From positions 1 to 26,829 of the IMG/VR virus record IMGVR_UViG_3300031774_002399: a stretch of 26,829 nucleotides of DNA, one strand, 5' to 3'. Below, one piece after another: positions 4,674 to 10,506 of the stretch; the first letter of the stretch is position 1, and each line of letters begins with the position of its first letter. The position numbers and the translations under genes are program-made. This DNA comes from a virus. A model generated the notes under the pieces. That model did no database searches. It was not told the DNA's origin and was given only the letters and a program-made list of their open reading frames with translations.

Positions 4674-5336
4674 ATGTTCAATCATTTATCAATTGATATT
4701 GAATCTATCAAGCAAAAGAACACTCCTAATGGAAGGAGATATGAGACCCCAACAGGTCAACTTTATCCTTCTATTACGACAATTCTTTCTCATAAAACGA
4801 AACCATTTATCCAACAATGGAGGAAACGAGTAGGTGCAAAAACAGCAGATAAAATCTCTAGGCAAGCATCTACACGAGGTACCTCTATTCATAAATTGTG
4901 TGAAAGCGCATTAAAAAATCTACCTGAAGAAACAGATATGTTGAGTCTTTTAGACCAGGAAATATATTCAGAGTTTCGTCCGTTGTTAAATGATATTGAT
5001 AACATACATGCACTAGAAGCAAAATTATATTCTGACCATTTACGACTTGCTGGTCAAGTAGATTGTATTGGAGAATATAAAGGTAAGTTATCTGTAATAG
5101 ATTTTAAAACTTCCAAGAAAAGAAAAACACGATCTCAATGTTATAATTACTTTATACAATGTTCAGCTTATGCTATTATGTTTGAGGAAAGAACAGGAAT
5201 ACCTGTTGATCAAACTGTAATTTTAATGGCACAAGAAGATGATGGTCCTGCTATTTGGGTAGAAAAAAGAGATGAATTTGTACCCAAACTTATTGAAGCA
5301 AGAGACGCATACGAAGAACATTTGAGTAATGTATAG
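4674..5336 (+). CDS. PD-(D/E)XK nuclease (RecB-type exonuclease domain)
   Basis: A 220-residue protein with the motif order of the RecB/PDDEXK_1 nucleases: RGTSIHKLCE (H73), an acidic residue E115, GQVDCIGEYKGKLSVIDFKTSKK with D130, D143 and K145 as the metal-binding/catalytic D...DxK, and the following QCSAYAIMFEERTG helix (motif QxxxY). The family cleaves DNA ends or single strands using Mg2+. In a phage it may act in recombination, DNA processing or degradation of host DNA. The next gene starts 8 nt before its stop, so the two are coupled. Confidence 0.85.
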   Translation: MFNHLSIDIESIKQKNTPNGRRYETPTGQLYPSITTILSHKTKPFIQQWRKRVGAKTADKISRQASTRGTSIHKLCESALKNLPEETDMLSLLDQEIYSEFRPLLNDIDNIHALEAKLYSDHLRLAGQVDCIGEYKGKLSVIDFKTSKKRKTRSQCYNYFIQCSAYAIMFEERTGIPVDQTVILMAQEDDGPAIWVEKRDEFVPKLIEARDAYEEHLSNV

Positions 5337-6968: not shown

Positions 6969-7010
6969 ACGGTACTATTGATGCTTGATAAAAGCTCTGA
7001 AAGAAGTTAA

Positions 7011-7018
7011 TATAAATA
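7011..7018 (+). promoter_or_regulatory. T4-type late promoter of the tmRNA gene
   Basis: Exact TATAAATA; predicted transcription start at 7024, directly at the beginning of the acceptor piece of the permuted tmRNA. No other gene lies between. Confidence 0.75.
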
Positions 7019-7023
7019 ACATT

Positions 7024-7258
7024 GTTCGTTGAAACTTAACGAAACTTTATGGACGTGGGTGCAATTCCCACCGCCTCCACCATTATCGCTGGTGGTAACC
7101 TAATAGCTCCGGATACGGGGGCGAACAGGTTCGACATAGAGAGGTAAGTAAGTGGAGAACAAAACTATAATCGGCGATAACGATTACGCACTTGCAGCCT
7201 AATTAATTAGGTAGACGGGCTTCGGTGGGTAGCTGTCAACAGAAACCCACCACTTTTT
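7024..7258 (+). ncRNA. ssrA: Permuted (two-piece) tmRNA
   Basis: Circularly permuted tmRNA gene. The acceptor piece comes first: T-arm GTGGG (7055-7059), 7-nt loop, CCCAC (7067-7071), then acceptor strand CGCCTCC (7072-7078), A and CCA (7080-7082). After a 34-nt spacer the coding piece opens with GGGGGCG (7117-7123), which pairs with all 7 bases of the acceptor strand, with a G-U at the third pair, the alanyl-tRNA synthetase identity element. GAACAGGTTCGAC follows as in bacterial tmRNAs. CATAGAG (7135-7141) pairs with CTTTATG (7045-7051) as helix 2. The tag frame runs from GGC at 7173 to TAA at 7200-7202, giving GDNDYALAA. The 14-nt palindrome 7198-7211 would form the helix holding the stop. 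The RNA would rescue stalled ribosomes and mark their products for proteolysis. The exact ends are inferred. Confidence 0.88.
7224..7258 (+). terminator. Hairpin and T-run ending the tmRNA gene
   Basis: GGTGGGT (7224-7230) pairs with ACCCACC (7245-7251), with a small inner CTG/CAG pairing, followed by ACTTTTT. It would end the tmRNA transcript 18 nt before the ATG of the hydrolase. Partial readthrough would be needed if that gene shares the promoter. Confidence 0.75.
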
Positions 7259-7276: not shown

Positions 7277-7762
7277 ATGTATATTAAATGGAAATTATTA
7301 CCGATATTATTTTTAGGTATGTTAGGGTTTTCAAACCCTGTGAATGCAAATGATAATGAAATCATTTGTTTAGCTGAAAATATATATTTTGAAGCTAGAG
7401 GTGAATCTACAGCAGGTAGAATGGCAGTTGCACTTGTGGTATTAAACAGAGTTAAGGATAGAAGATTTCCTAACTCGGTTTGTGGTGTTGTTAAACAAAC
7501 TAAATATTATCCTAGTGGTAGGATAGATTTACATTCATGCCAATTTAGTTGGTATTGCGACGGCAAATCTGATGCACCTGCAGATAGATCTTGTTGGGAA
7601 GATGCGTTATTAATAGCAGAAGTTATGTACACATACGACTCAATAGACGTAACAAATGGTTCCTTATGGTACCATTCTAAAAGAGTAAACCCTAATTGGG
7701 CTACACATTATCAACAAACAGTTAGCATAGATAACCATATTTTTTATAAACCACTTGACTAA
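7277..7762 (+). CDS. Exported cell wall hydrolase, SleB type
   Basis: A 161-residue protein of the SleB/CwlJ-like hydrolase family (Hydrolase_2). Residues 1-24 form a signal peptide (basic start, hydrophobic LLPILFLGMLGF, cleavage probably after VNA). The domain shows CLAENIYFEARGES (residues 31-44, with the likely catalytic Glu), AVALVVLNRVKDRRFPNSVCGVV and CQFSWYCDGK near 93-102, all family hallmarks, with several cysteines probably paired in the periplasm. The family cleaves peptidoglycan. With a secretion signal it can reach the cell wall through the host export machinery, so it is a good candidate for the main or a second endolysin. The ribosome binding site is GGGAG. The tmRNA terminator lies directly upstream; no separate promoter is obvious. 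Confidence 0.9.
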   Translation: MYIKWKLLPILFLGMLGFSNPVNANDNEIICLAENIYFEARGESTAGRMAVALVVLNRVKDRRFPNSVCGVVKQTKYYPSGRIDLHSCQFSWYCDGKSDAPADRSCWEDALLIAEVMYTYDSIDVTNGSLWYHSKRVNPNWATHYQQTVSIDNHIFYKPLD

Positions 7763-7789: not shown

Positions 7790-8692
7790 ATGTTAACAGA
7801 CTTACCTAACATAATGATTACGGGCGGTTGTGGGTTTATAGGGTCACACCTAACCCACCGTCTTTTGGATCAAGGATTTTATGTTCATGTTGTTGACGAC
7901 CAAAGGCAAGGTAAAGTAATTTGGAATCATGATAATGTAGAATATCATAAATGTGATGTTGCAAACTTTAATCCTCATGATGCATATATTGAACCGCCAC
8001 AAGCGATATTCCATTTAGCGAATACTCCTAGAGTAAGAAGAGCTTTAGAATATCCAACTGAAACAATTAAAAACAATATAGGAACAACAGCAACAGTTGC
8101 TGATTGGGCTAGAACTTTTAATTGTAAATTATTTTTTGCTACTTCTTCTAGTACACAATACAAAGAAGCAGCATCAAATCCATATACATTTAGCAAAGCA
8201 ATGTGTGAACACATGTTGATGTTATATCGAGATCTATATGGTTTAGATTTTGTATTAATGTATTTTTATAATGTTTATGGGCCGGGTGAAGCAGACTATG
8301 GACCATATAGTACTGTTATCAGAAAATTTAAAAAAGATTACTTGACAGGCAATCCTATAACAATATTTGGCAATGGAAAGAAGGAAAGAGATTTTACTCA
8401 TGTTCATGATGTAATACAAGGTTTATTACAACTAATGGTAGATCATGAAGCACCTTCTGTTGTTCATTTAGGTAAAGGACAACCACAAACAATTCAATCG
8501 ATTGCAGACAATTTTAATTGTCCTATTGTATATGAATTTGATAGGCCAAGTGAAGCATTAATAACCCATTGTGAGAATCCTTATATAGAATGTCCTAATG
8601 ATGTACATTCTTATCTTACACATTGGGTTGAGGAGAATAAAACAAATTATGACACCAAAAATCGTAGTGGACAACACAATAGAAATGACTGA
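7790..8692 (+). CDS. NAD-dependent nucleotide-sugar epimerase/dehydratase
   Basis: An extended short-chain dehydrogenase of 300 residues. The Rossmann dinucleotide motif is ITGGCGFIGSHL (GxxGxxG, residues 10-21), an Asp follows strand 2 (VVDDQRQGK), FHLANTP is the expected H-A segment, SSSTQY carries the active-site Ser/Thr, and YTFSK is the catalytic YxxxK. FYNVYGPGE and the C-terminal RDFTHVHDV motif place it with UDP-glucose 4-epimerases and dTDP-glucose dehydratases. It may alter surface sugars or feed glycosylation of phage parts. A TTG at 7766 gives a longer frame, but that start would lie within the promoter; ATG 7790 is preferred although no ribosome binding site precedes it. The 3' end overlaps the gp33 gene by 44 nt. 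Confidence 0.87.
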   Translation: MLTDLPNIMITGGCGFIGSHLTHRLLDQGFYVHVVDDQRQGKVIWNHDNVEYHKCDVANFNPHDAYIEPPQAIFHLANTPRVRRALEYPTETIKNNIGTTATVADWARTFNCKLFFATSSSTQYKEAASNPYTFSKAMCEHMLMLYRDLYGLDFVLMYFYNVYGPGEADYGPYSTVIRKFKKDYLTGNPITIFGNGKKERDFTHVHDVIQGLLQLMVDHEAPSVVHLGKGQPQTIQSIADNFNCPIVYEFDRPSEALITHCENPYIECPNDVHSYLTHWVEENKTNYDTKNRSGQHNRND

Positions 8693-8948
8693 GAAAAAAG
8701 TTAGTGACGTATTCCTTATTACAAAGGAGTTTCATACATCGACTGAGTTTTCACAGTATATAGAAAAAATGGCATACAATACAAGTTCGCCTTGTATGGA
8801 TATGGTGGTTGATTATTGTATTAAAAAAGAAATTGAAATAGAAAGTATGTCTAAATACTTAACATCATCTTTAAAAGAAAAAATTAAAAACGAAGCATTA
8901 GATTTAAATTTGCTTAAAGAGAAAAGGCAGACAGAAAAACTTTTGTAA
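8649..8948 (+). CDS. 33: Late promoter transcription accessory protein gp33
   Basis: A 99-residue protein resembling T4 gp33, which binds RNA polymerase and couples it to the sliding clamp at late promoters. The conserved C-terminal part is visible: FSQYIEKMA, then MDMVVDYCIKKEIEIESMSKYLTSSLKEKIKNEALDLNLLK. The end, KRQTEKLL, is the likely clamp-binding tail. The gene lies directly before gp59 and gp32, as in T4. A longer in-frame start at 8598 is rejected because it would extend deep into the epimerase gene and adds residues foreign to the family; ATG 8649 has GAGGAG about 13 nt upstream. Its stop overlaps the gp59 start (TAATG). Its presence fits the many TATAAATA promoters here; the late sigma factor gp55 is not in the window. 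Confidence 0.82.
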   Translation: MTPKIVVDNTIEMTEKKVSDVFLITKEFHTSTEFSQYIEKMAYNTSSPCMDMVVDYCIKKEIEIESMSKYLTSSLKEKIKNEALDLNLLKEKRQTEKLL

Positions 8949-9591: not shown

Positions 9592-10506
9592 ATGTCGTTT
9601 AATACACTTTCAGACCTCAGAAAACAAAGAGGCAACTTCGATAACTTGATGAAGGAAGTCGAAAAAATCTCAAATCCCCAATCAAACTTTAAACAGGATG
9701 ATGGTCGGGAATGGAAACCCACAGTAGACAAAGCAGGAAACGGTTATGCCGTTATCAGGTTTTTGCCTGCTCCTCAAGGCGAGGATATGCCATGGGTTAG
9801 AATTTGGAATCATGGATTCCAAGGACCAGGTGGCAAGTGGTATATTGAGAACTCTCTAACTACTTTAAACAAAGCAGATCCTGTTTCAGAATTAAACTCT
9901 GAACTATGGAACTCTGGTGTTGAAGCTAATAAGGAAATAGCTCGTAAGCAGAAGAGACGTCTTAATTATTATGCCAACATTATGGTTGTTGAAGATAAAG
10001 CAAACCCAGAGAATGAAGGACAAGTATTCCTTTATAAATTTGGTAAAAAGATCTTTGACAAAATTAAAGATGTGATGCAACCACAATTTGAAGATGAACA
10101 ACCAGTAAATCCTTTTGATTTCTGGGAAGGTGCAAACTTTAAATTGAAAATAAGGCAAGTTGAAGGCTTTAGAAATTATGATAAAAGTGAATTTGATAGC
10201 CCTTCAGCAGTAGCAGAAGATGATGCTAGAATTGAAGAACTTTGGCAAAACCAACATTCTCTACAAGAGGAAGTTGCAGATAGTAAATTCAAGACCTACG
10301 AGGAATTGAAAACTAAACTGAATCTAGTTTTAGGAAGTTCAAGTAAAGTTCCTACAGCAGAGTCTATTTCCAGCACAACAGGAGATGCAGAGGACGACCA
10401 TTTTATGGAAAAAGTGAAACAAGTCCAACCAGTATCAAATGTTGATACGTCAACAGATAGTGATGATGATACTTTATCGTATTTCAAACAACTAGCTGAA
10501 GACTAG
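9592..10506 (+). CDS. 32: Single-stranded DNA-binding protein gp32
   Basis: A 304-residue protein matching T4 gp32 (301 residues). The N-terminal cooperativity region contains LSDLRKQRG, the DNA-binding core follows (WKPTVDKAGNGYAVIRFLPAP, WVRIWNHGFQGPGGKWYIE, NYYANIMVVEDKANPENEGQV), and the acidic C-terminal tail after residue 265 (DAEDDHF, STDSDDDTLSYF, AED) is the usual protein-interaction arm. It coats ssDNA in replication, recombination and repair and contacts gp59. The zinc-binding cysteines of T4 gp32 are replaced here: the equivalent stretch reads ENSLTTLNKADPVSELNSE, without Cys. AAGGAG lies 9 nt before the ATG. A strong terminator follows the stop by about 20 nt. Confidence 0.95.
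   Translation: MSFNTLSDLRKQRGNFDNLMKEVEKISNPQSNFKQDDGREWKPTVDKAGNGYAVIRFLPAPQGEDMPWVRIWNHGFQGPGGKWYIENSLTTLNKADPVSELNSELWNSGVEANKEIARKQKRRLNYYANIMVVEDKANPENEGQVFLYKFGKKIFDKIKDVMQPQFEDEQPVNPFDFWEGANFKLKIRQVEGFRNYDKSEFDSPSAVAEDDARIEELWQNQHSLQEEVADSKFKTYEELKTKLNLVLGSSSKVPTAESISSTTGDAEDDHFMEKVKQVQPVSNVDTSTDSDDDTLSYFKQLAED

Follow-up and report, generated by a model that had tools for sequence, protein, structure and literature searches.

A permuted two-piece tmRNA gene without pseudoknot 1, behind a putative composite promoter, in a T4-like phage

The permuted tmRNA gene and its surroundings

We analyzed a stretch of viral DNA of 26,829 nucleotides (IMG/VR record IMGVR_UViG_3300031774_002399, positions 1 to 26,829; hereafter 'the window'), in which a circularly permuted tmRNA gene occupies positions 7024-7254 of the forward strand, as ARAGORN and the Rfam models alpha_tmRNA and tmRNA_permuted agree (Table 1). 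The surrounding gene order (PhoH, PDDEXK nuclease, tmRNA, gp33, gp59, gp32) is that of phage Melnitz, and a tmRNA in the slot between the PDDEXK nuclease and gp33/gp59 is found in Melnitz, Mosig, HTVC008M and many IMG/VR contigs. The lysis gene that an earlier note on this DNA had placed beside the tmRNA is indeed there: a cell wall hydrolase gene (PF07486) begins at 7277. Based on the common slot and on the baseplate wedge protein, which is closest to that of HTVC008M (39% identity), the window appears to come from an uncultivated marine T4-like myophage related to the pelagimyophages. At positions 148-2731 of the window, this T4-like phage encodes two radical SAM proteins side by side, of which the second has a SPASM domain.

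Table 1. Features of the tmRNA locus, with window coordinates
Feature	Position	Strand	Basis or remark
PDDEXK exonuclease, upstream border of the slot	4674-5336	+	phrog_298; same order in Melnitz and Mosig
Weak sigma-70-like promoter, TTGATA-17-TAATAT	6985-7013	+	9 of 12 matches; -35 is TTGATT in sisters L004-L006
TATAAATA, T4-type late promoter element	7011-7018	+	predicted start about 7024; lineage enrichment upstream of ORFs; sister conservation
5' hairpin TTCGTT/AACGAA, precursor start	7025-7043	+	sequence; counterpart hairpin in RF01849 alignment
Helix 2, 5' strand	7045-7051	+	7 pairs with 7135-7141; covariation
T arm GTGGG-TGCAATT-CCCAC	7055-7071	+	Rfam models, pairing, covariation
Acceptor 3' strand, discriminator A, encoded CCA	7072-7082	+	Rfam models, pairing
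Predicted intervening segment, lost in maturation	7083-7116	+	34 nt, no ORF; inferred from RF01849/RF04321 models
Acceptor 5' strand GGGGGCG	7117-7123	+	Rfam models, pairing, co-folding, covariation
Helix 2, 3' strand	7135-7141	+	pairing, co-folding, covariation
Single-stranded linker in place of pseudoknot 1, AUAA kept	7142-7172	+	31 nt, shortest of all; MFE 0.0, no pseudoknot found
Tag frame GDNDYALAA-stop	7173-7202	+	ARAGORN; resume codon GGC at 7173
3' hairpin GGTGGGT/ACCCACC (7224-7230/7245-7251), tmRNA-type loop, then five T (7254-7258)	7224-7258	+	sequence, Rfam
Cell wall hydrolase (endolysin), just downstream of tmRNA	7277-7762	+	PF07486, phrog_938
gp33-like late-transcription coactivator	8598-8948	+	PF16805, phrog_254

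ARAGORN reported a permuted tmRNA with the tag GDNDYALAA. The covariance search proposed in the earlier note gave scores above the cut-off with both models, namely 78.4 bits for RF04321 (cut-off 47) and 68.1 bits for RF01849 (cut-off 50). The acceptor strands 7117-7123 (GGGGGCG) and 7072-7078 (CGCCTCC) form seven of seven pairs, of which the third, G7119-U7076, is the pair of alanine identity, and CCA is encoded at 7080-7082. Helix 2 (7135-7141 with 7045-7051) likewise has seven of seven pairs, one of them G-U, and the T stem five of five. The tetramer AUAA occupies positions -6 to -3 before the GGC resume codon; AUAG or AUAA is preferred ahead of tmRNA resume codons (PMC4236655).

We also collected about 46 distinct permuted tmRNAs from IMG/VR phage contigs; a cell wall hydrolase search returned mostly unrelated phages, yet it added further tmRNAs to this collection. 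Among 31 representatives, one per tag, pairing was found in 100% of cells for the acceptor (40-57% when the partner strand was shifted by 1-3 bases), 100% for the T stem (54-75%) and 79% for helix 2 (31-48%). Columns changed on both sides numbered three, four and seven, respectively, so that the compensatory changes in the acceptor and helix 2 among related phages, on which the earlier note had made its reading depend, are present. When the two predicted pieces were co-folded without constraints, the acceptor, T arm and helix 2 were all recovered at -68.0 kcal/mol, compared with a mean of -49.3 (sd 4.0, lowest -58.8) for 100 shuffles. A chance or pseudogene match is ruled out by the two covariance models, by co-folding against shuffles and by covariation. 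The model scores, the covarying pairings, the G-U pair with CCA, and the ALAA-stop frame with AUAA place the gene among the permuted two-piece tmRNAs, and its type is alphaproteobacterial. ARAGORN, Rfam, pairing, co-folding and covariation thus bear out the earlier description of a phage-encoded, permuted, two-piece, alpha-type tmRNA, including its acceptor pairing with the third-pair G-U and its helix 2. The 'terminator' of that description fared differently: the final hairpin and the five T are present, but this hairpin is a standard alpha-tmRNA element, so that it is no more than a possible terminator.

Two side observations concern the intervening segment. In the window, positions 7077-7095 (CCACCA-TTATCGC-TGGTGG) form a hairpin of six perfect pairs, which would sequester the encoded CCA within the precursor and is possibly a processing or folding signal. 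In other phages (L167, L169, L170, L172, L184, L187 and L119; also L115, L135, L132 and L082), the segment holds a small SD-preceded ORF with a hydrophobic product of 23-40 aa, for example MKNPLVREVSKWMFRTYILWSICADITLLAGIIYLIFF, whose UGA stop ends 1 nt before the acceptor strand in most loci. The main family of these ORFs has a pN/pS of 0.18 (seven loci), and the proteins matched neither PHROG entries at 0.001 nor anything in phage records. We know of no earlier description of a protein-coding gene that lies inside the gene of a permuted tmRNA.

The upstream motif and a variable gene slot

The motif TATAAATA occurs 11 times in the window, compared with 5.0 expected. In the window together with Melnitz, Mosig and HTVC008M sequence, 41 of its 63 occurrences lie 90 nt or less upstream of ORF starts, whereas the 55 other permutations of its letters gave 7.1 such placements on average and 20 at most, which argues for a genuine promoter-like element in this lineage. 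Its position at 7011-7018, its enrichment upstream of ORFs and the presence of gp33 in the window correspond to a T4-type late promoter; gp55 is annotated in the relative Mosig, and the window's own gp55 would fall outside the window. We then considered 44 distinct phage tmRNA upstreams against 100 shuffles. NATAAATA, the late motif of cyanomyoviruses (PMC2984593), was found in 24 of them (2.5 expected) and a sigma-70-like site in 35 (14.1 expected), and the two overlapped in 22 (0.24 expected, maximum 3 in the shuffles). Such overlap at about half of the phage permuted tmRNAs predicts early as well as late supply. A mere extended -10 is a disfavoured reading of TATAAATA, since the motif lies at variable offsets (0, 3 or 5 nt) from the sigma-70 hexamer, yet is invariant in the sisters.

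The earlier note had inferred a late promoter that increases ribosome rescue or tagging late in infection, beside a lysis gene. Taken as a late-only reading, in which gp55/gp33 alone transcribe the tmRNA and the adjacent hydrolase ties it to lysis, this agrees with the perfect TATAAATA, which stays unchanged in the sisters while the -10-like hexamer alternates between TAATAT and TATAAT, with the weakness of the sigma-70 half in the window (9 of 12 matches, in a stretch where promoter-like sites are barely above shuffles), and with locus L040, which has TATAAATA and no recognisable sigma-70 site at the motif. However, the sisters retain a TTGA-type -35 at 17 nt, the motif is overlapped by strong sigma-70 sites in most relatives, and overlapping early and late promoters have been proposed for middle genes of RB49 and S-PM2 (PMC2984593). 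Late-only expression therefore seems unlikely to us, and we infer that early supply with a late boost is favoured. In other words, the late-type element pointed out earlier is real in the lineage, but early-to-late expression fits better than exclusively late use, because the element overlaps a weak sigma-70-like site here, as at half of the tmRNA upstreams.

The closest relatives of the window, L004-L006, whose gp59 is 94-95% identical, carry a 43-aa DUF7230 gene (PF23876) exactly at the place of the tmRNA. An Rfam scan of 15 sister loci found no tmRNA in L004-L006 or in the other complete loci, which argues against tmRNAs overlooked by ARAGORN, and it found truncated tmRNAs in L072 and L074; no fetched locus has both a tmRNA and DUF7230. 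In the gp59 tree, the window groups with three carriers of DUF7230 (support 99), and there are at least four changes of the tmRNA state. Given that the nearest relatives do without it, the tmRNA is dispensable. In three further loci (L033:4516-4763, L034:1786-1947 and L035:3911-4072), a tRNA gene cluster fills the slot, here between PDDEXK and an epimerase, replacing the tmRNA or DUF7230.

The spacing to the promoter is the same for both genes. In all 12 loci whose upstream sequence is long enough, a gap of exactly 5 nt separates NATAAATA from the DUF7230 ATG; in the window, L017 and L018, the gap between NATAAATA and the tmRNA 5' hairpin is likewise exactly 5 nt. T4-type late transcription starts about 6 nt after the motif, and such a start would fall on the same base for DUF7230 and the tmRNA. 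With its start codon at this distance, as at L004:3334-3465 and its equivalents in L005, L006, L010, L012, L022, L023, L025-L028 and L038, a T4-type late transcript of DUF7230 would be leaderless. Since the closest relatives have DUF7230 equally spaced behind this promoter, the promoter belongs to the slot rather than to the tmRNA. As to the earlier statement that the phage had put the gene under a late promoter of its own, either the tmRNA entered behind a promoter that serves DUF7230 in the nearest relatives, or the swap ran the other way. The swap marks the tmRNA and DUF7230 as accessory cargo of one promoter slot.

These observations also bear on the origin of the gene. The nearest tmRNAs found, in a comparison set that is phage-derived, are those of other phages, from which the window tmRNA is strongly diverged overall; its 5' part most resembles that of L017/L018, members of the same phage group (78% over 68 nt). 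One pattern scan of genome contigs for an alphaproteobacterial tmRNA gave three hits, none of them such a tmRNA; two of the contigs hold non-permuted tmRNAs, and no RF01849 match came from any of the three. As the promoter is that of the slot, with DUF7230 behind it in the closest relatives, fresh capture from an alphaproteobacterial host, which the earlier note had inferred, looks less likely than exchange among phages, and phage-to-phage exchange into a variable slot would be the simpler account.

Loss of pseudoknot 1 and the proposed function

The window tmRNA has lost pseudoknot 1. The distance from helix 2 to the resume codon is 31 nt, compared with 40-81 nt in other phage tmRNAs, and folding of this segment gave no pseudoknot (MFE 0.0). 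A stem or pseudoknot is present in the pre-tag segment of nearly all other phage permuted tmRNAs examined; L082 and L188 have no pseudoknot by the criterion used, but their segments do fold. Pseudoknot 1 is a usual, not strictly defining, element of permuted tmRNAs, and it is absent here. An identical tmRNA occurs in contig L003, which differs from the window by 2 SNPs in 6,481 bases, so that an assembly error is unlikely. A pattern scan found no third copy without pseudoknot 1, and the known copies are thus two near-identical contigs; a loss confined to these could equally signal early decay.

According to review literature (PMC3968760, PMC4236655), E. coli tmRNA requires pseudoknot 1 for tagging, although the element can be replaced by a hairpin or by single-stranded RNA; these two papers cite Wower et al. 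2009 for an engineered E. coli tmRNA that lacks pseudoknot 1 and retains tagging. Because the element is replaceable there, it is plausible by analogy that the window tmRNA functions without it, and the missing pseudoknot amounts to a natural test of its dispensability.

Two other explanations start from the same deletion. One is that the tmRNA is a passenger that recombined into a variable slot and is now eroding without function. Its absence from L004-L006, the repeated changes of state on the gp59 tree and the deletion itself would fit, but everything else is intact despite the high overall divergence, including every acceptor, T-stem and helix 2 pair, the tag and the 3' hairpin, and we regard such decay as quite unlikely. 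The other is that an RNA lacking an element that nearly all its phage counterparts possess binds SmpB and stalled ribosomes, tags poorly, and blocks or redirects host trans-translation. There is a precedent in mycobacteriophage DS6A, of which a frame-less tmRNA form inhibited E. coli tmRNA on expression (PMC11915505). However, the tag frame, the ALAA end, the AUAA resume signal and the alanine identity, none of which an antagonist would need, are intact, and the engineered tmRNA without pseudoknot 1 tags; a decoy is therefore likewise quite unlikely in our estimate.

We propose instead, with a probability of roughly two in three, that the window encodes an accessory, probably tagging-competent minimal tmRNA with a composite promoter, supplied early and boosted late, that helps to keep ribosomes usable. 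Transcription would begin near 7024 from the composite promoter, whose weak host sigma-70 site would be active early and whose TATAAATA site would be used by the phage late sigma/gp33 system. Host tRNA-processing enzymes would cut the precursor in two, releasing an acceptor piece with CCA at its end (7082) and a coding piece from 7117, and the acceptor stem and helix 2 would hold the two together. Once it carries alanine and host SmpB, the tmRNA would rescue stalled ribosomes and add a peptide ending in ALAA for proteolysis. The deletion of pseudoknot 1 leaves a single-stranded linker with the frame-setting AUAA, and since this signal is retained the tmRNA probably still tags, perhaps less efficiently. 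During the mRNA degradation of infection, it may in this way help to keep host ribosomes usable. A more far-reaching idea, which we rate as less likely than not, is that a tmRNA has dispensed with pseudoknot 1 in nature, as a still functional or a modified rescue/decoy RNA tuned for infection, and that it is swapped with DUF7230 behind a common composite promoter, both transcripts starting from the same base.

Comparison with known systems

Phage two-piece tmRNAs are not a new kind, as they are already annotated in the cultured T4-like phages Melnitz and Mosig. The authors who published the permuted tmRNA of Melnitz found 53 two-piece tmRNAs across phage genomes, of which 50 were marine or aquatic (PMC9004378). 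They propose an early promoter for the tmRNA, and the main published proposal for why phages of this group carry one assumes early expression (PMC9004378). The SsrA gene of the Methylophilales phage Melnitz EXVC044M (MZ577097, PMC9004378) is also a permuted alpha-type tmRNA between the PDDEXK nuclease and gp33/gp59. The earlier note knew of no phage tmRNA behind a T4-type late promoter; the published Melnitz tmRNA has TTGACA-17-TATAAATA just upstream, although its authors call that promoter early, and this site is akin to the TTGATA-17-TAATAT overlapping TATAAATA of the window. Melnitz differs in its tag (ANDNYVPVDYALAA), its intervening segment of 142 nt, its structured 56-nt pre-tag segment (the pseudoknot 1 region) and a glutamine riboswitch behind the tmRNA, of which Rfam detected none in the window at the gathering threshold. 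This riboswitch is said to control the tmRNA. In our analysis it lies at L002:10399-10447, downstream of the tmRNA 3' end, for which the model match stops at 10391, and shortly before a small SD-led ORF near 10469; from this position, it more likely controls what follows.

The SsrA gene of Pelagibacter phage Mosig (MT647606) and the tmRNA of HTVC008M (KC465899) are also permuted and lie in the same slot next to gp33. The Mosig tag, GEDNFALAA, has 9 aa and a GGC resume codon as in the window, but no TATAAATA stands directly upstream of its tmRNA, and both phages differ from the window in having longer pre-tag segments with predicted pairing. The HTVC008M tmRNA (KC465899.1, about 145103-145461; L200:45103-45461) scores 90.6 bits with RF04321, has the tag ANFNEYALAA and is unannotated in the GenBank record. 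Mosig sequence also contains a manA RNA motif at L199:8164-8371 (RF01745, 64.0 bits).

The overlapping promoters of RB49 and S-PM2 resemble that of the window, in that a sigma-70-like site overlaps the NATAAATA late motif, but they were described for protein genes, whereas that of the window precedes a stable RNA gene. In the engineered E. coli tmRNA, as in the window, single-stranded RNA replaces pseudoknot 1; that tmRNA, however, is a one-piece laboratory construct that still tags, whereas the window tmRNA is natural and two-piece, and its tagging is predicted. What the window copy adds to these known systems is the natural loss of pseudoknot 1 and a putative composite promoter held in common with an alternative gene.
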